In this document: piece by piece, positions 5,064-11,432 of the stretch
Layout of the letters: the number at the start of each line of letters is the position of its first letter
How positions within the stretch are numbered: the first letter of the stretch is position 1
DNA from: Acidobacteriota bacterium
GTDB taxonomy: Bacteria; Acidobacteriota; Terriglobia; Acidiferrales; UBA7541
Assembly (NCBI GenBank): GCA_003223245.1
Contig: QHYI01000113.1
Location: 1 to 55,413 of the forward strand
Direction of reading: 5' to 3'
DNA length: 55,413 nucleotides
Translations under genes and position numbers: made by a program
The notes under the pieces: model-generated
What the model saw: the letters and a program-made list of their open reading frames with translations, nothing else
Database searches by the model: none
What the model was told of the DNA's origin: nothing

Positions 5064-5477
5064 CTAATTGTGCCGCCCGGAGCTTCTCGGTCTGGCGGTT
5101 TCGGATTCTATTTTCGCCACGGTTATCGTATTCGTCTTCGGATCGAGTGTGCCAACGACTTTCACCTTCTGCCCCGCCCATCCCTCTGCCACGGCCTGCG
5201 CCTGGAGCTTGTAAACGTTGTCCTTGGCCTGTAGCACGTATCTTCCGCCGCGTTCCTTGACACAATAGCGGGCACACTCAGCATTCGTTCTGATTTCCGG
5301 CTTCATCTGTATCATTTCCTTGTGAGACTGGCTTAGCGAATGCACGTTCAGCGCGCACTGCGTGTCGGCGATCTCGCCCAGGAAGGTCTTCTCGCCTGCT
5401 CCGCGCACGCGGGCCGCATTAAAGGCGCCCCCAATCAGCACCGCGATAAAGATAATTGTTCCTGATTTGTTGGTCAT
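5064..5477 (-). CDS. Small exported protein, DUF5818-like
   Basis: A 137-aa protein with an N-terminal signal peptide (MTNKSGTIIFIAVLIGGAF...). The mature part has the pattern GEIADTQCA, a HxxxxxH stretch, ECARYCVKERGG and then a beta-rich end (YVL..VYKL..QKVKVVGTLD..TITVAKI) that looks like a small OB-like barrel. This arrangement is common in acidobacterial exported proteins of unknown function; C41, C68 and C72 with nearby histidines could bind metal or haem, but that is inference. ATG at 5477 has a GGGAGAG ribosome binding site. It is the fourth gene of the porin-cytochrome-CuA operon, 46 bp after the third. Confidence 0.75.
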   Translation of the reverse strand: MTNKSGTIIFIAVLIGGAFNAARVRGAGEKTFLGEIADTQCALNVHSLSQSHKEMIQMKPEIRTNAECARYCVKERGGRYVLQAKDNVYKLQAQAVAEGWAGQKVKVVGTLDPKTNTITVAKIESETARPRSSGRHN

Positions 5478-5523: not shown

Positions 5524-5967
5524 TCACGGCTGCACGACAAGCTTCATTTCCATCCCTTCGTGGTCCTGGCTGCAGATCACGGTGCATACCACCACGTATT
5601 CTACTGCTTCGTTGGGCGCCGTCACCGAGAATTCCTGAACGCCCGGTTTCAGCAGGAAGTCCCACCCATCGACAGGGCTCCTATCCTTGGCGCGGAGCAA
5701 GCTGAAGCCATGAATCGCGCCGTCGCGATTGACGTTTTTCGCCTTCTTCGCCGTGATCCGCAACGTAAGTGGCTCGCCCGCCTTAACGGTAATTACAGGT
5801 TGCTTCTGCCCCGCCATTTTATATCGGCTATCGTGGTCCGCCAGGATTTCAATCACGCGTAATGCCGGTTGTGGGCTCTGTCCCCAAGCCGAGGCGCATA
5901 GCGCCAGCGCAACTAGAGGCCAGCGCCAAAGGAACATTGTTTTCAGAAAGCCGGTGTTCGGTCTCAT
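5524..5967 (-). CDS. Periplasmic cupredoxin with CuA-type binding motif
   Basis: A 147-aa exported protein with a signal peptide ending near AWGQ (residue 30) and a single cupredoxin domain. The C-terminal loop C128-x3-C132-x3-H136-x2-M139 (CTVICSQDHEGM), with H86 upstream (IHGF), reproduces the binuclear CuA ligand set of cytochrome c oxidase subunit II and nitrous oxide reductase. No membrane anchor or oxidase subunit I is nearby, so it is a free-standing CuA protein, probably a periplasmic electron carrier. Its ATG overlaps the cytochrome stop (ATGA at 5964-5967), implying coupled translation. Copper ligation is deduced from the motif; the redox partner is unknown. Confidence 0.82.
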   Translation of the reverse strand: MRPNTGFLKTMFLWRWPLVALALCASAWGQSPQPALRVIEILADHDSRYKMAGQKQPVITVKAGEPLTLRITAKKAKNVNRDGAIHGFSLLRAKDRSPVDGWDFLLKPGVQEFSVTAPNEAVEYVVVCTVICSQDHEGMEMKLVVQP

Positions 5968-6332
5968 TGCGTCATGTACTTCAAGATCAGGCGCATGTCC
6001 TCATCGGTGAGCATGGCTCGCACTCTCATGTGTCGAATCGCCGTGGCCATCACTCTCGGCGGAAACTTATGCGGCGGCTGATGACAGCGCCCGCAATTCG
6101 TGCGGAACCGCTTTTCGCCCTCTATTCGCGCTGCTCTGTCTTCGCTTGCGGAGCTTCTAAAAGCCTGCGGGGACGCACGGTCATGGCTCGGGATGGAATT
6201 GGTAGCCGAAAGGCCGGCAGTTGCCGCGGATTCCGAAGCCTTTTCCGATTCTTTGTGCTCCTGGGCAATCGCAGTTCGGACCAGGCAGGCCGTCACGCCA
6301 AAACAGCAAAACAGCATCCAATTTCGCCTCAT
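5964..6332 (-). CDS. Exported monohaem cytochrome c
   Basis: A 122-aa protein with a signal peptide (MRRNWMLFCCFG...TAIA-QE), a low-complexity Ser/Ala/Glu linker of about 45 residues and a short class I-like cytochrome c domain containing one haem-binding site C80-G-R-C83-H84. Candidate distal methionine ligands are M95, M102 or M107 (VMATAIRHMRVRAML). The domain ends with the usual helix (LTDEDMRLILKYM). The ATG at 6332 overlaps the stop codon of the upstream beta-barrel gene (ATGA, 6329-6332) and its own stop overlaps the CuA protein start, so the three genes form one translational unit. Confidence 0.85.
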   Translation of the reverse strand: MRRNWMLFCCFGVTACLVRTAIAQEHKESEKASESAATAGLSATNSIPSHDRASPQAFRSSASEDRAARIEGEKRFRTNCGRCHQPPHKFPPRVMATAIRHMRVRAMLTDEDMRLILKYMTQ

Positions 6333-7429
6333 TGCGCGCTCCCTGTTGGCCCGAGCGGAACGACAAATCGATACGTAAGGGCCATGGTCCAAACATTCAG
6401 GTTCCCCGCAGCACTAAATTGGCGCCCGTAATTGCTGGAAGCCTTCAATCCATCCATGAAGTAGTAGTTCACGCCGAATTCGAACTCTTTGGTATTCACC
6501 GAGGGCAGCGCGTCGTTGGGCAGCTCTCCGGCAAAAAACTGCTGATACCTCGCGACGAGTTGCGTGCGCCGCATTTTGTTTCGCAAGAACGGGAGCTGGC
6601 TCAGTTTGTAGGCGGGTTCTACCCAATAGCCGCTGCCGCGCCTGGAATGGGCATATTCGCCGCGGATGTCCAGCGGGAGAGGCGTCGGTTGCCAGATCGT
6701 ATGAAAGCCAAAGAGATTCGATCGCTCCTGTTGCAGCAAATGCTGGAAGGAGCCCCCGATTTCCAGTCTCTCGCTGGGCACAAAAATCCCAGCACGCAGC
6801 CCGGCAAATCGGTCGGAATCGACCGGGCTCCTCGTCGAGAGCGCCGAAAAGTAAGCCGTGTAGTTGATGTTGAGCTGCGGATGCGCCTTAAACCCTCCCC
6901 GAATCATCGTCCCAGTGCTGGCGTTGCTTGGCCCGATTCCGATGGGCAGAATCAGCGGGTCAGACTGCAAGTTTCGAATCCACGCCGGATAGAGCCGTTC
7001 GTTGAATATGCCAAAAGGCGTCAGGAATCGGCCCACAGTTACCGTCATGTAAGAATTCGCGATGAAATCGATTTGGGCGTATTCGACTTCCTTTTGAACA
7101 GGGCCACCGTGAAACCCGCTTCTTCCCGGCACTTGAACCAAGTCGTTTTCGAACGTCGCGCGCGTTTCGAACAGCCATCTCTGCCCGATGGGCAGAAGCA
7201 CCACCGGCGCGGCAATGGGATGCAAATCGGGTTGCCCGCCGGTGAAATTGGTGATAAAGCCCACGCTGCCCTGAAGTAAGGGGACGGGCTTGACGTCCTC
7301 GTCTGACACCCCCTGGGCGGACACCGGAGTGGCGAATGGATTTAAGGCCAAGGCGAAGGACAGCAGCGCAAGCCCCGCACGGGCTCGAAGGCGATCTGCC
7401 GAAATCAGGAACGTTCTGGTCTTCTTCAC
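6329..7429 (-). CDS. Outer-membrane beta-barrel (porin-like) protein
   Basis: A 366-aa protein with a signal peptide (LALLSFALALNPFATPVSAQG) and a sequence dominated by alternating-hydrophobicity strands ending in aromatic residues (GSVGFITNF, LFETRATFEND, IDFIANSYMTVTVGRFLTPFGIF, LNINYTAYFSA, FEFGVNYYF). The size suggests about 14-18 strands. The motif GRFLTPFGIFNERLYP resembles phosphate-selective and other Acidobacteria/Bacteroidetes porins, but I cannot name the family. The GTG at 7429 with GAGG six bases upstream is preferred to a TTG at 7441. First gene of the operon with cytochrome c and CuA protein, so it may be a conduit component rather than a nutrient porin; that is inference. Confidence 0.75.
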   Translation of the reverse strand: MKKTRTFLISADRLRARAGLALLSFALALNPFATPVSAQGVSDEDVKPVPLLQGSVGFITNFTGGQPDLHPIAAPVVLLPIGQRWLFETRATFENDLVQVPGRSGFHGGPVQKEVEYAQIDFIANSYMTVTVGRFLTPFGIFNERLYPAWIRNLQSDPLILPIGIGPSNASTGTMIRGGFKAHPQLNINYTAYFSALSTRSPVDSDRFAGLRAGIFVPSERLEIGGSFQHLLQQERSNLFGFHTIWQPTPLPLDIRGEYAHSRRGSGYWVEPAYKLSQLPFLRNKMRRTQLVARYQQFFAGELPNDALPSVNTKEFEFGVNYYFMDGLKASSNYGRQFSAAGNLNVWTMALTYRFVVPLGPTGSAQ

Positions 7430-7441
7430 ACCCCACCTCAA

Positions 7442-7710: not shown

Positions 7711-8643
7711 ATGCGCGTAAGAGTCCTCGGATCCGCAGCCGGGGGCGGCTTTCCCCAATGGAATTGTCAGTGTCCCAACTGTGGCGCTTTGCGGCGCGGC
7801 AAGATAAAAGCTCGTCCGCGCACGCAAACCCAGGTCATCTTCTCCCCCGACTCCAAGGTTTGGTTTCTGCTGTGCGCTTCTCCAGACCTGCGCCAACAAG
7901 TTCTCGCGGCACCGGAACTCGCTCCCCCTGCTGATAGACCTTCCCCGCCGATTGGCGGCGTGTTCCTGCCCAACGCTGAAGTGGATTCGGTGATGGGGCT
8001 GCTCCACCTGCGCGAGTTCCAGACCTTTTTTGTCTTCGCCACTCGCGGCGTGCAGTGCGTTCTTCAAAGAGAAAACCGGATCTTCGGCGTTCTAGAGCGC
8101 GCTAATCCTCCGGTGAAATGGCAAACCTTATCTGCAAAAGGGCGCCTCGGTTGTCATATGTCTGAGGATTCTTCCGGACCGGCTGACTTCATCTGCGCGA
8201 CGGTGCCCTTGGGTGGCTGTTATCCCGATTATGTCAGCGAAGAGATGCTCCGCGCAGTCCCGCCGGAAGAGGCGTCCATCGGCTTTGTCATCGAGCAAAG
8301 CGAGAAGCGCCTCTTCTTTGCTCCCTCGCTTTCAGGGTCTTCGGCGATGTGGAAGTCAGAAGTGGAATCCGCCGATGCCACTTTGATTGACGGGACCTTC
8401 TGGAGCGACGACGAACTGATGCGCACGGGCCGTAGCAGCAAAAGCGCGCGCGAAATCGGCCATGTGCCGCTGTCTGGGCCTGGCGGCCTGCTGGAGCAAT
8501 TCCCGACGAAAGGCAAAGGCCGCAAAATCCTGATCCACCTCAACAATACGAATCCCATTCTTGACGAAGACAGCGCGGAACACCGTATGGTGCTGGATGC
8601 CGGTTTCGAAATCGCCTACGATGGCATGGAGTTCGAACTATGA
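7711..8643 (+). CDS. pqqB: Pyrroloquinoline quinone biosynthesis protein PqqB
   Basis: Metallo-beta-lactamase-fold protein of PQQ synthesis, thought to act as a hydroxylase. The N-terminus (MRVRVLGSAAGGGFPQWNCQCPNC, with the CxC..C zinc site) and later blocks (LIDGTFWSDDELMRTG, IGHVPLSGPGG, KILIHLNNTNPILDEDS, AYDGMEFEL) are all present and length (310 aa) is normal. In the metal-binding loop the usual DHTAGLL reads DSVMGLL, so one expected histidine is missing; I cannot tell whether this is lineage variation or decay. It overlaps pqqC by 4 bases (ATGA). The later genes of the operon are damaged, so PqqB may no longer serve PQQ synthesis. Confidence 0.92.
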   Translation: MRVRVLGSAAGGGFPQWNCQCPNCGALRRGKIKARPRTQTQVIFSPDSKVWFLLCASPDLRQQVLAAPELAPPADRPSPPIGGVFLPNAEVDSVMGLLHLREFQTFFVFATRGVQCVLQRENRIFGVLERANPPVKWQTLSAKGRLGCHMSEDSSGPADFICATVPLGGCYPDYVSEEMLRAVPPEEASIGFVIEQSEKRLFFAPSLSGSSAMWKSEVESADATLIDGTFWSDDELMRTGRSSKSAREIGHVPLSGPGGLLEQFPTKGKGRKILIHLNNTNPILDEDSAEHRMVLDAGFEIAYDGMEFEL

Positions 8644-9218
8644 CCGTGCCAGTGGCAAGCACTCTCGAAAGGCCTTCCCTTTCCAAAGCCGAGTTCACCG
8701 CTGGCTTCCATGCCATTGGCGAAGAGCGCTATCACCACAAACACCCATTTCATCTGCTCATGCATGACGACAAGCTCACCCGCGGTCAGCTTCAAGCCTG
8801 GGCACTCAACCGCTACTTCTACCAAAACCGAATTCCCGTCAAAGACGCCGCGATTCTCGCGCGCAGAGAAGATCCGGCGTTCCGACTTGCCTGGCGCAAG
8901 CGGATTCCCGATCACGACGGCGACGGCACAAAGCCAGGCGGGATCGAAAGATGGTTGAAAGTCGTCGAAGCGACCGGCCTTTCTCGCGATCTCGCGTTGC
9001 GCGGTGACGGAATCCTTCCTGCCACGCGCTTTGCGGTGCAAGCCTATGTGGATTTCGTCTCCACCCGCTGGCATCGCGAAGAACAAGATAAAGCACACGC
9101 CGCTGTGCGCGCGAAGTGCGACATTCTCCGGGCGCAGCTCGACGCCCTGTATTTCGCGTACGTGAATCCCGGCTGGCCTCCTCCGGGCGCGTTGCAACCC
9201 GCCAAGGAAAATGCATGA
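8640..9218 (+). CDS. pqqC: PqqC-like protein with large in-frame internal deletion
   Basis: PqqC is the cofactorless oxidase that closes the PQQ ring. Here residues 1-140 match well (FHLLMHDDKLTRGQLQAW, NRYFYQNRIPVKDAAILAR, DHDGDG, GGIERWL, GILPATRFAVQAYVDFV), and the C-terminal helix (AVRAKCDILRAQLDALYFAYVNPGW) is also present, but the segment normally between them, about 50-60 residues with the LTELFAP, IHxxR and YFxxRL blocks, is gone at about 9060. The protein is 192 aa instead of about 240-250. The lost region holds active-site residues (the His/Arg and Tyr/Arg pairs), so it is expected to be inactive. The deletion keeps the frame and the ATGA overlaps with both neighbours. Confidence 0.88.
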   Translation: MTVPVASTLERPSLSKAEFTAGFHAIGEERYHHKHPFHLLMHDDKLTRGQLQAWALNRYFYQNRIPVKDAAILARREDPAFRLAWRKRIPDHDGDGTKPGGIERWLKVVEATGLSRDLALRGDGILPATRFAVQAYVDFVSTRWHREEQDKAHAAVRAKCDILRAQLDALYFAYVNPGWPPPGALQPAKENA

Positions 9219-9502
9219 GTGTGGACTTAAACAGCAAGCCGCGTCTCGCCGCAGGATGCCGTATGGGAGAAAACAATAATCAGCGCGTTCTGCTGATGCC
9301 GAAGCGTGCTTGGCGCCTTAACGGTCCGAGCTTGGAAATTGTTTCCCGCTGCGATGGCGAGCACTCTGTGGCCCAAATCATCGGCGAGTTGCAATCGATC
9401 TATTCCAAAGCCGAGCCGCACAAAGTCGAGCAGGACATCCTCGGCTATCTCGCGCTTTTGCAGAAGGAACGCGCTCTCGATTTCGAATCAGGCGCCGTGT
9501 AA
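9215..9502 (+). CDS. pqqD: PQQ biosynthesis peptide chaperone PqqD
   Basis: A 95-aa PqqD that would bind the PqqA peptide and present it to PqqE. The pattern KPRLAAGCRMGENNNQRVLLMPKRAWRLNGPSLEIVSRCDGEHSVAQIIGELQSIYS is complete, with the C-terminal GYLALLQKERALDF helix. The start ATG overlaps the pqqC stop (9215-9218). The frame is undamaged although the neighbouring pqqC and pqqE are broken. Confidence 0.92.
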   Translation: MSVDLNSKPRLAAGCRMGENNNQRVLLMPKRAWRLNGPSLEIVSRCDGEHSVAQIIGELQSIYSKAEPHKVEQDILGYLALLQKERALDFESGAV

Positions 9503-9508
9503 CACCCC

Positions 9509-9716
9509 TTGCCGCCTAGCCTGCCTAGCTCATAAAACCCGCTCGCCCTGGTCGCCGGACTCACGCATCGCTGCCCGCCTCCATTGCGTCTATTGCTCGA
9601 ATCCTCTCGAACTGCAATCGCGTTCGAACGAGCTCTCAAGTGAAGTTTGGTCCCGCGGCGAAGACTGGACGCAAGAACCTTGCAAATCCTGCGATCGCCG
9701 TACGCAGGATTTTGGG
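9509..9716 (+). pseudogene. pqqE: PqqE remnant, N-terminal part with stop, frameshift and internal deletion
   Basis: PqqE is the radical-SAM enzyme that cross-links Glu and Tyr of PqqA. A possible TTG start at 9509 is followed by PPSLPSS, a TAA stop (probably from CAA), then NPLALVAGLTHRCP, a one-base insertion in the next codons (ccgcctccat, one c too many), and then LHCVYCSNPLELQSRSNELSSE, the hallmark CxxxCxxC iron-sulfur region of PqqE. After EVWSR the sequence jumps straight to EPCKSCDRRTQDFG, which belongs to the C-terminal auxiliary-cluster domain, so roughly 250 residues are missing. An IS is inserted directly after DFG at 9716. Four independent lesions make this a clear pseudogene. 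Confidence 0.88.
9710..9716. repeat. Target-site duplication, left copy
   Basis: TTTTGGG directly precedes the TGT terminus of the insertion sequence; the same 7 bases follow the other end at 11234-11240. Confidence 0.88.
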
Positions 9717-9752
9717 TGTCGGCGGCGGCGAAAAACTGGTCCACTTTGGCGG
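9717..9752 (+). repeat. IS terminal inverted repeat, left
   Basis: Starts TGTCGGCGG and ends with TGGTCCACTTTGGCGG; pairs with 11198-11233 read on the minus strand, with 11 of the outer 20 and all of the inner 16 positions identical. Confidence 0.87.
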
Positions 9753-9842
9753 CAGCAGGTGGACCGGCGAGGTGGTTACGCTCTGTAGGGTAGTGGCCAC
9801 GTTGAGGAATGCGGGCCTTTGGTGTATCGGTCAGTTCTTTTT

Positions 9843-10622
9843 CTATGCTGGACGTTCCCCTTCTTTGGGGCCGTGTGCACGGTACGACCGGCCTTTAATC
9901 GTGAGGATGATCGCTCCCTCCACGATGCGATCGAGGAAAGCCATGGCCACGGGCCCATCGGGCAGATACTCTCCCCATTTTTCGAAGTCCACGTTGGTGG
10001 CGAGCGCGGTGGACTTCTTCTGGTTTCGCCGGGCGATGATCTTATAGAGCAGGTGAGCCGATTACGGGCTTGCCTCCCGCTCGATTTTGTCGCATCCGAA
10101 TTCGTCCACGATCAATAAGTCCGGACGCGCGTAGCGGCGCAGCTTTTCGGGAAGCGTTTTGTCCGCGAGCGAAGCGGTCAAATCCGAAATCAAATCGGCG
10201 GAGGTGCGATAGAGGACGCGATACCCATGGACACAGGCCTTTTGCCCCAGGGCCTGAATAATGTGACTCTTTCCAACTCCGCTCCAACCCACCAAGATCA
10301 CATTGGCGCGACGCCGGATGAAATCTCCGGTAGCCAACTCTTCGATCTGCTGGCGGTCAAAGGCCTTGGGGTTGAACTTCCAGTTGAAGCCTTCCAGGGA
10401 TTTGTCCTCAGCGAAGTGCGCTTCCCGGATGCGCCACTGAATGGAACGTTCGCGGCGAGCGTTGGCTTGCTCGCCGATGAGCTGATCGAGAAAATCCAGA
10501 TGCGAGAGATTCTCTTTTTCGGCTTTCGTGAGCAGTACATCCAGCGATTCGGGTCGGAACGGAATACCCAGAGTCGCAAAGTGGCTCAAGCACCGATCAC
10601 GTAGATGCGTCGCCTTGGTCAT
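9843..10622 (-). pseudogene. istB: IstB-like ATP-binding transposition helper, interrupted by a stop
   Basis: IstB is the AAA+ helper of IS21 transposases. From the ATG at 10622 the frame shows THLRDRCLSHFATLGIPFRPES, the Walker A GWSGVGKSH, Walker B LLIVDEFGCDKIERE, then SP followed by TAA at 10064-10062. The same frame continues without shift as SAHLLYKIIARRNQKKSTALATNVDFEKWGEYLPDGPVAMAFLDRIV and ends at a TAG at 9843, giving 259 codons, the normal IstB length. The family has glutamine (ESPQ) at the stop, so a single CAA to TAA change explains it. Without the C-terminal third (sensor region) the protein is probably inactive. Confidence 0.88.
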
Positions 10623-10895
10623 GTTCGGTTGGGTTCTCTTGTCGCGCACGCGCTCGCGGTAGCGTCGGCTCTGGACTTTTCGCTTGAGCGTCACACTCAT
10701 CAAGTCTGCATACACGTATATGCATATAGACATGAGTCGTATGCGCTTTTCTTTACCCCGCACAGTTGCCCGGTACTTCTGCTGCGCCTTCCATGCGGAC
10801 CACTCCCGCGCCTCCTCTCGACAGCGAGCACTGCAGTAGTGCTCCGAGGCTTGGTGAGGATGGAAGGGCTGCTCACATCCTTTCAGCAAACACAT
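10623..10895 (-). CDS. Small cysteine-motif basic ORF of the insertion sequence
   Basis: Frame-continuous with istB but carrying a separate kind of sequence: CLLKGCEQPFHP..EHYCSARCREEAREWSAWKAQQKYRAT..KEKR and QSRRYRERVRDK. The CxxxxC...YCSxxC arrangement suggests a small zinc-binding domain followed by a basic helix, as in short proteins I recall next to istB in other genomes. There is no stop between it and istB, so a fused product starting at 10895 or 10982 is possible. An AT-rich imperfect palindrome (10696-10736) interrupts the basic part. The role is unknown. Confidence 0.5.
10696..10736. repeat. AT-rich imperfect palindrome inside the IS ORF
   Basis: CTCAT (10696-10700), GTCT (10704-10707) and the overlapping TGCATA (10707-10712) are mirrored by TATGCA (10719-10724), AGAC (10728-10731) and ATGAG (10732-10736) around CACG. 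It is far more AT-rich than its surroundings and is translated in frame as SICIYVYADL. Confidence 0.6.
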
Positions 10896-11197
10896 CCGCG
10901 TTCGCGGCTGGCGCGCGAGAAGCACGCATCTGCTTGCCTCTTGATTTTGGGGAGCGTCTGTAGGACGTTCAGGAAGGCCCATGGGAGGTACTGCTCCCAG
11001 AAGCTTATGCCTCGGAGGGGAACTGCTAATTCCTCTCCGGGACGCAGCTCTTCGTTCACCGACCGTGAATCAGAAGTCCACGCGGCGCAAACACACTCTA
11101 CCTCAACTCATTCCTTGGCAGGGACACGATCGCTTGGCTCGCAACTCTTCCCCTCCACTTACCGCCACCGACTACTGGTGGTCCGGCCTACACTGGA

Positions 11198-11233
11198 CCG
11201 CCAAAGTGGACCACTCTCAATCCGCCACTAACA
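11198..11233 (-). repeat. IS terminal inverted repeat, right
   Basis: Read on the minus strand it starts TGTTAGTGGCGG and ends TGGTCCACTTTGGCGG, matching the left end at 9717-9752. Confidence 0.87.
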
Positions 11234-11240
11234 TTTTGGG
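11234..11240. repeat. Target-site duplication, right copy
   Basis: TTTTGGG directly follows the ACA terminus of the insertion sequence and repeats 9710-9716. Confidence 0.88.
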
Positions 11241-11432
11241 GGTTGCCGGTGTCAGGCCATTCGCGGGGACCCGTCCGCGACCGATCCTGTTTGCTCGCTC
11301 ACGCCGCAGCGCCCCAAGGTGCACGCAATCCTTACCAACGTGAACGCGCATGACGGCGTGGGGGCGAGGCTTGCCTCGCCCACCGCAGCTTTGCCCAAGA
11401 TCAGCTGGCTCGATCGCCCCAACCCTGCCTGA
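11241..11432 (+). pseudogene. pqqE: PqqE remnant, C-terminal part after the IS
   Basis: Continues the pqqE frame broken at 9716: GCRCQAIRGDPSATDPVCSLTPQRPKVHAIL, which is the end of the SPASM-type cysteine cluster and C-terminus of PqqE (family pattern DFGGCRCQA...TDPVC.LSP). It runs to a TGA at 11430-11432; the last 30 residues are not conserved and contain the GTGGGGGCGAGGC hairpin. It has no start of its own. Confidence 0.85.
11359..11383. terminator. Hairpin between convergent pqq and TonB receptor genes
   Basis: GTGGGGGCGAGGC / GCCTCGCCCAC form a strong GC stem with a two-base loop. It lacks a T-run, so it may be a REP-like hairpin rather than an intrinsic terminator. It sits about 70 bp before the converging TonB receptor stop. 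Confidence 0.4.

Follow-up and report, generated by a model that had tools for sequence, protein, structure and literature searches.

The window analysed here is the whole of a 55,413-nucleotide stretch of an Acidobacteriota genome of the class Terriglobia (assembly GCA_003223245.1, contig QHYI01000113.1). Its subject is a compact operon on the minus strand, in which the gene of an outer-membrane beta-barrel is coupled to those of an exported monohaem cytochrome c (cytA) and an exported cupredoxin of the CuA type. A preliminary description of this DNA had named the barrel, the CGRCH cytochrome, the complete set of CuA ligands and the two ATGA overlaps that join the three genes, all of which were confirmed in the sequence. 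It had also placed a small exported cysteine protein after the CuA gene. This protein is present and proves to be a member of DUF5818 (PF19135, E=7e-7), and because it accompanies the other three genes in this taxonomic order the set is extended to position 5064. The features are as follows.

6329 to 7441, minus strand: outer-membrane beta-barrel gene, an open reading frame (ORF) with its start at TTG 7441 or GTG 7429
5964 to 6332, minus strand: exported monohaem cytochrome c (cytA), from its CGRCH motif and the 17-row alignment A5
5524 to 5967, minus strand: exported single-domain CuA-type cupredoxin, from alignments A3 and A6, an AlphaFold2 (AF2) model, Foldseek and weak profile matches
5064 to 5477, minus strand: exported DUF5818 protein, from PF19135
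6329 to 6332, minus strand: ATGA overlap of the barrel stop and the cytA start, from the sequence
5964 to 5967, minus strand: ATGA overlap of the cytA stop and the CuA start, from the sequence

The junction sequences GCAATGAGGC and GCAATGAGAC are the two overlaps, and a gap of 46 bp separates the CuA gene from the DUF5818 gene. Signal peptides of the operon proteins were judged by eye, with no prediction program. The window has a single ORF of at least 60 aa with a CXXCH motif, that of the cytochrome, and a single one with C-x3-C-x3-H-x2-M, that of the CuA protein. COX1 was found above its cut-off on three other contigs of the source genome, and the window contig gave no match. With one CXXCH in cytA and no other such frame in the window, the earlier statement that this is not a known porin-cytochrome conduit stands for conduits of the multihaem kind.

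Conservation of the gene set across the Acidobacteriota

The gene order extends to many genomes beyond the one in which it was noticed. Of the 95 genomes of the order, 26 are found with the CuA protein of the window as query, and in 18 of the 26 all four operon genes, DUF5818 included, occur together (in G462 with a piece of the barrel only). The same four genes are found in a genome of another family of the class (G257), and two genomes of another class (G234, G218) carry barrel, cytochrome and CuA at 29-44% identity. Across 396 genomes of the phylum, a barrel family profile (A4/A7) gave 35 matches, of which 28 are strong (E<1e-80) and seven weak (E 1e-13 to 7e-4, excluded from the count). 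The cytochrome profile gave 30, and its 28 strong matches (E<1e-24) lie in exactly the 28 strong-barrel genomes (Fisher p=1.5e-43); this count excludes weak matches in G350 and G351 and a second, broken match in G329. Several loci of one genome were counted once (e.g., L001, L069 and the window), the partial match of G462 and the fragments of G417 were dropped from the set of the order (22 of 95 genomes), and L045 was dropped as well, since its blast values equal those of L046 although the record bears another label.

Every strong relative of the barrel neighbours cytA, a point on which the preliminary description could have failed. The two genes abut in 26 of the 28 genomes, and in the remaining two (G352, G049) an insertion lies between them, the barrel of G352 also carrying a stop. 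Junctions were measured in 40 of the 47 strong-barrel genomes of two sets, leaving out G329, G337, G163, G225, G249 and the two insertion genomes. The barrel stop lies within 30 bp of the nearest in-frame cytochrome start in 39 of these 40, the choice of the nearest start codon biasing such distances to short. The 4-nt overlap of barrel and cytA recurs in 23 of the 40 loci, and that of cytA and CuA in 7 of the 27 loci where CuA comes next. No junction value could be given for G448, where cytA lies inside a longer ORF overlapping the barrel; gene order there, as in G422, also of the order, is barrel, cytA, CuA and a second cytochrome, cytB. Since the two genes share the same 28 genomes, abut in 26 of them and mostly have short junctions, these comparisons strongly support barrel and cytA as one functional unit, and the conservation of the junctions disfavours a chance association.

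A CuA match at E<=5e-30 is present in all 28 barrel genomes (Fisher p=3e-29 for co-occurrence, with a CuA profile that leans towards barrel-linked copies). In G257 that match is a copy linked to NrfD, and the operon copy scores 4e-25. The CuA gene stands next to cytA in 12 of the 28 and divergently beside the barrel in two (G241, G281). Eighteen genomes of the order, and G257 as well, have a DUF5818 gene adjoining the CuA gene, and no DUF5818 match was found in the G234 and G218 loci, the loci of family f2 not having been searched. One cultured strain, Granulicella tundricola MP5ACTX9, also carries the barrel-cytA unit: on its plasmid pACIX902 the barrel (ACIX9_RS20945) is annotated as a 'hypothetical protein', and the short cytochrome gene after it is missing from the gene table. 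Locus L094 of G249 is identical to pACIX902 over 3,948 bases, and the CuA and cytB genes of G249 are on a 4.3-Mb contig. The CuA protein of the window, searched in plasmids, gave no match.

Proteins of the operon and related loci

The cytochrome consists of a signal peptide, a low-complexity linker and a haem domain of about 50 aa with the pattern NCxRCHxxP...HMRxRA. The residues N, C-R-C-H, P, T and HMR-RA are invariant in alignment A5, each row of which has a single CXXCH. Its likeness is to the C-terminal haem domain of TorC, seen in 15 of the 17 members at a best E of 6e-4, far below the cut-off. At a separate locus (L114:1674-7255), an apparent two-component system, a weakly related barrel of 476 aa and a cytochrome with two CXXCH motifs, the first in a cytA-like haem domain, were observed.

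The barrel, about 370 aa with its signal peptide, is weakly Porin_O_P-like by profile comparison. The window protein matches that Pfam family at E=5e-5 and 23.1 bits (gathering cut-off 20.9), with a best stretch of only 37 residues, and seven of 22 barrels match at E<=0.1. One of the 22, not the window barrel, gave a sub-threshold match to ExtI (NCBIfam NF040900, E=0.016), and the barrel profile found nothing among PDB sequences at E<=1 or E<=10. The count of 16 strands is a hand reading from low-confidence AF2 secondary structure and the alignment. In the topology drawn from it, periplasmic turns are short and outer loops longer, the long conserved stretch PFGxxNERLxPxWIxNLQ would be the third outer loop, and a His/Asp/Glu-rich insert of the G234 and G218 barrels would fall in the seventh, on the extracellular side.

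The CuA ligands of the window protein are H86, C128, C132, H136 and M139. All five are invariant across 12 divergent cupredoxins (alignment A6), and in the 14 rows of alignment A3 the H, C, C and H are invariant and the M nearly so. Their conservation in orthologues and divergent homologues, proposed earlier as a check, is thus borne out, with single exceptions taken up below. The AF2 model has a mean predicted local distance difference test (pLDDT) score of 73 and a predicted cupredoxin fold, in which the site would be expected to hold copper. Foldseek with this model returns, among others, soluble CuA models and the ba3 oxidase CuA domain (E 4e-5 to 7e-5), and also ephrins, auracyanin, laccases and nitrosocyanin. 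In VIA-align many cupredoxins (EfeO, FtrB, AcoP, laccases, NirK and E. coli bo3 subunit II among them) are tied at Z 8-9, and the ba3 domain is absent among the 50 matches listed, although Foldseek ranks it high. The CuA profile finds only oxidase subunit II types among PDB sequences, all weakly (E 0.3-0.9), and phmmer with the window protein as lone query gave no match. Identity with cytochrome c oxidase subunit II was rejected, with CoxB at 12.9 bits against a cut-off of 147.7 and no COX1 on the contig, and there was no match of NosZ length. The source genome holds another single-domain CuA-like cupredoxin in a different context (L179:331-765, contig C226).

The DUF5818 protein has the conserved pattern DSQCALNVHSLSxSHxxM...CxRYCV. 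Its Cys, His and Met residues are the one ground for suggesting that it may be a metal or assembly helper, for instance in metallating CuA.

Paralogues of the CuA protein precede a 4Fe-4S protein with a start like that of twin-arginine (Tat) substrates and NrfD at nine loci of eight genomes (L053, L054, L056-L060, L064, L065); at L056 only NrfD was seen, the iron-sulphur ORF being hidden by an antisense one. Four of these loci (L057-L060) have a cytochrome with ten CXXCH motifs and an ORF of 918-1036 aa ahead of the CuA, iron-sulphur and NrfD genes, and L057 has two CuA copies in tandem. Pfam confirmed NrfD, the iron-sulphur protein and the multihaem protein of L059 and gave no match for its 918-aa protein, so that 'MtrB-like' would rest on its size and place, and a full conduit in these four loci is putative. 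These modules, four of them with a decahaem cytochrome, support a role of CuA as a periplasmic carrier.

Five loci of genus g221 have long flanks, and in three of them (L046, L048, L068) genes for haem A and haem O synthases, with DUF420 where it was seen, lie near the operon, Pfam being positive for COX15-CtaA in L046 and L048, UbiA in L046 and L068, and DUF420 in L048. In family f2, cytB follows CuA, and two such proteins that were scanned match cytochrome 579 of Leptospirillum at E=3e-9 and 4e-5, below the cut-off. Two genomes of this family, G155 (L163) and G313 (L165), have an apparent exopolysaccharide cluster between the barrel-cytA and CuA parts; in G155, Pfam identified SLBB export and Wzz-type proteins (two proteins) between barrel-cytA and CuA-cytB. 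At a distant locus of G107, a genome of another class, a weakly related barrel is directly followed by a CuA protein and a di-haem oxidoreductase of the DHOR family (PF06537; L115:3887-6617), possibly a related unit.

Upstream of the operon in the window, pqqB, pqqC and pqqD are divergent, and the downstream flank holds mraZ, mraW and ftsL-like genes, named by reading. The pqq cluster (8640-11429) is decayed: about 60 internal residues are missing from PqqC, and pqqE survives only in pieces around an IS21 IstB gene, longer pqq copies being present in the relative L044.

A candidate single-haem conduit and its rivals

Gene order, the barrel-cytochrome neighbourhood and the CuA ligands are all conserved, and the joint function that the preliminary description had suggested for barrel, cytochrome and CuA is for this reason well supported. 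The core of its further idea, a minimal electron-transfer module, came through the three tests set for it, which concerned these same points; location, direction and substrate are what we infer here. The set probably links the cell surface to the respiratory chain by electron transfer. With about even confidence we read the operon as encoding an outer-membrane electron-transfer unit of two chains and a single haem, served by a periplasmic copper carrier of its own and resembling Cyc2 and Cyc572 but unfused. The proposal is built on genes and their comparison. A porin-like barrel, probably of 16 strands, would span the outer membrane, and cytA would dock at or in its periplasmic mouth, by analogy with the fused haem domain of Cyc2. 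Electrons would reach the cytA haem from a small reduced substrate inside the pore or from a surface donor, and the CuA protein would accept them and carry them on, in some families through cytB, to a haem-copper oxidase. By analogy, the flow is probably inward, to such an oxidase; the donor is perhaps a soluble Fe(II)-like compound, which is the least certain part. Besides the conserved pairing, this reading draws on the Porin_O_P likeness of the barrel, the haem A/O synthase genes close to some operons, the cytochrome 579 match of cytB, the CuA paralogues in NrfD modules, COX1 elsewhere in the source genome and the His/Asp/Glu-rich insert of the G234 and G218 barrels. The earlier phrase 'CuA in place of multihaem wires' probably needs a slight correction. 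The part of the wire would fall to the single haem, as has been suggested for Cyc2, and CuA more likely replaces a periplasmic carrier such as rusticyanin, Cyt579 or PioC.

As the literature describes them, Cyc2 and the Leptospirillum protein Cyc572 likewise combine a small porin-like barrel and one haem c at the outer membrane with a downstream periplasmic carrier and oxidase. Passages of one study (PMC8406198) model the Cyc2 porin on OprO/OprP, propose that its single-haem domain plugs the periplasmic mouth of a 16-strand porin, and give PXFAR[Q/K][T/Y] upstream of CXXCH as its signature. The single CXXCH is found here too, whereas the signature occurs in none of the 17 cytA sequences, and barrel and cytochrome, fused in Cyc2, are separate coupled ORFs in the window and at the strong barrel loci; identity with Cyc2 was rejected on these grounds. 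The carrier is a CuA protein here and rusticyanin or Cyt579 there, and the present unit is known from genes alone. In MtrAB, PioAB and MtoAB, as described in the literature, an obligate barrel-cytochrome pair also works with a periplasmic carrier (PioC, MtoD), but with ten haems against one and 26 strands against about 16 by hand count. An MtrAB-type conduit was rejected from the lone CXXCH of cytA and of the window and from the size of the barrel.

The CuA domains of cytochrome c oxidase subunit II and nitrous oxide reductase share with the operon protein the five side-chain ligands (C-x3-C-x3-H-x2-M and an upstream His) and the cupredoxin fold; the protein here differs as a free-standing, exported single domain, with neither COX1 on its contig nor a match of NosZ length. 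Geobacter ExtHIJKL, an operon in which we know of no CuA, resembles the present one in a porin, ExtI, clustered with c-type cytochromes, and is set apart by the sub-threshold match of a single barrel. A passage of PMC5877670 describes ExtI as a porin annotated as phosphate-selective among c cytochromes. The Acidithiobacillus rus operon (Cyc2, Cyc1, rusticyanin, aa3 oxidase) is similar in its outer-membrane cytochrome-porin, soluble copper protein and second cytochrome (here in f2), and passages of PMC10654088 list CtaA and CtaB with the iron pathway of that genus; haem A/O synthase genes likewise lie close to three of the g221 loci. It differs in type-1 copper in place of the CuA motif, and the operon here has no oxidase structural genes. 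The Sideroxydans cupredoxin cluster, as excerpted from PMC12016527, is a different gene set, and no description of a barrel-monohaem-CuA operon was found in the open-access literature, as judged by titles, abstract openings and passages.

Several observations weigh against this proposal. The Cyc2 signature is lacking, and passages of PMC10654088 place Acidobacteria among Cyc572 homologues, Cyc572 being compared here by its description. The AF2 model of the barrel, from a 10-row alignment, is poor and unreliable (pLDDT 44), and the strands were counted by hand. The CuA gene lies 6-14 kb off in 9 of the 28 barrel genomes and elsewhere in 5, that is, beside neither barrel nor cytA in 14, and about 23 barrel-less genomes have a similar CuA match (hand count, best E<=1.3e-24); CuA may for these reasons serve several systems. 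In G488, barrel and cytA have no adjacent CuA, and CuA, cytA-like and cytB-like genes are on another contig with no barrel. The first CuA Cys is Arg in the orthologue of G419 (L044:9923-10369), in an otherwise similar operon, and the ligand Met is Gln in one paralogue (L057). At the family level cytB matches a cbb3-type fusion protein best (5e-10 and 8e-10, below the cut-off), ahead of cytochrome 579, and two of the five long-flank g221 loci (L062, L067) have no haem A genes. The G234 operon is flanked by NrfH and NrfA, which would suit a reductive role just as well, and by genes for a sigma-54 response regulator and a kinase-like protein. Most of the sequences behind profiles A5 and A6 come from barrel-linked loci, a bias towards matches there, and the genome searches scored a limited number of candidates per genome.

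The same conduit may instead run outward, with CuA and cytA relaying electrons from quinol or the periplasm to an oxidant outside the cell or one that enters the pore, such as a metal oxyanion, nitrite, Fe(III) or humics. The weak match to ExtI, a selenite/tellurite porin, the likeness of cytA to TorC, itself part of a reductive chain, NrfH and NrfA beside the G234 operon and the CuA paralogues beside NrfD modules all point this way. We nevertheless regard it as rather unlikely, as the TorC and ExtI matches are far below their cut-offs, and the haem A/O synthase genes near three loci and the cytochrome 579-like match of cytB point to oxidases. There may also be no transmembrane conduit at all, the barrel being a specific porin for a small redox solute (Cu+, Fe2+, phenolics), cytA and CuA a periplasmic oxidation pair for detoxification or copper and iron handling, and DUF5818 a metal helper. 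A small, weakly Porin_O_P-like barrel would suit this, as would the conserved Cys/His/Met pattern of DUF5818, the match of the CuA model, in fold only, to the iron-uptake cupredoxins EfeO and FtrB, and the G107 locus with its weakly related barrel, CuA and DHOR di-haem enzyme. So strict a pairing with a haem protein, in 28 of 28 genomes, would be unusual for a plain porin, however, and the operons read have no recurrent permease or multicopper oxidase gene, and we consider this explanation improbable. The link to pyrroloquinoline quinone (PQQ) dehydrogenases that the preliminary description had raised, under which the linkage would reflect PQQ-dependent alcohol oxidation, draws on the divergent pqqBCD genes and on pqqB, which adjoins the operon not only in the window but also in five of six other long-flank loci of genus g1. 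It is nonetheless strongly disfavoured and very improbable, since the association is absent outside that genus as far as searched: tblastn found no pqq genes in L045-L048, from other genera, reading the other long loci by eye showed none, and the pqq cluster of the window is itself decayed.

Returning to the proposed inward single-haem unit, we suggest tentatively, with somewhat less than even confidence, that it represents a distinct class of conduit in the Terriglobia and another acidobacterial class, with a split porin-cytochrome, one haem and a free-standing CuA acceptor. This would be, as far as we know, the first respiratory CuA acting as a mobile carrier instead of as part of an enzyme, and CuA would be a periplasmic currency shared with the NrfD and multihaem modules. 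Acidobacteria are abundant in soil, and to our knowledge little has been learned, for most of them, about electron exchange with minerals, humics or dissolved metals. The barrel-cytA unit can be tested directly, because Granulicella tundricola MP5ACTX9 carries it. If the proposal is true, a minimal conduit that needs one haem and one CuA protein would add to the designs known for electron transfer at the outer membrane, demonstrate that CuA can serve as a mobile carrier, account for a group of 'hypothetical' genes and provide new marker genes for metagenomes.

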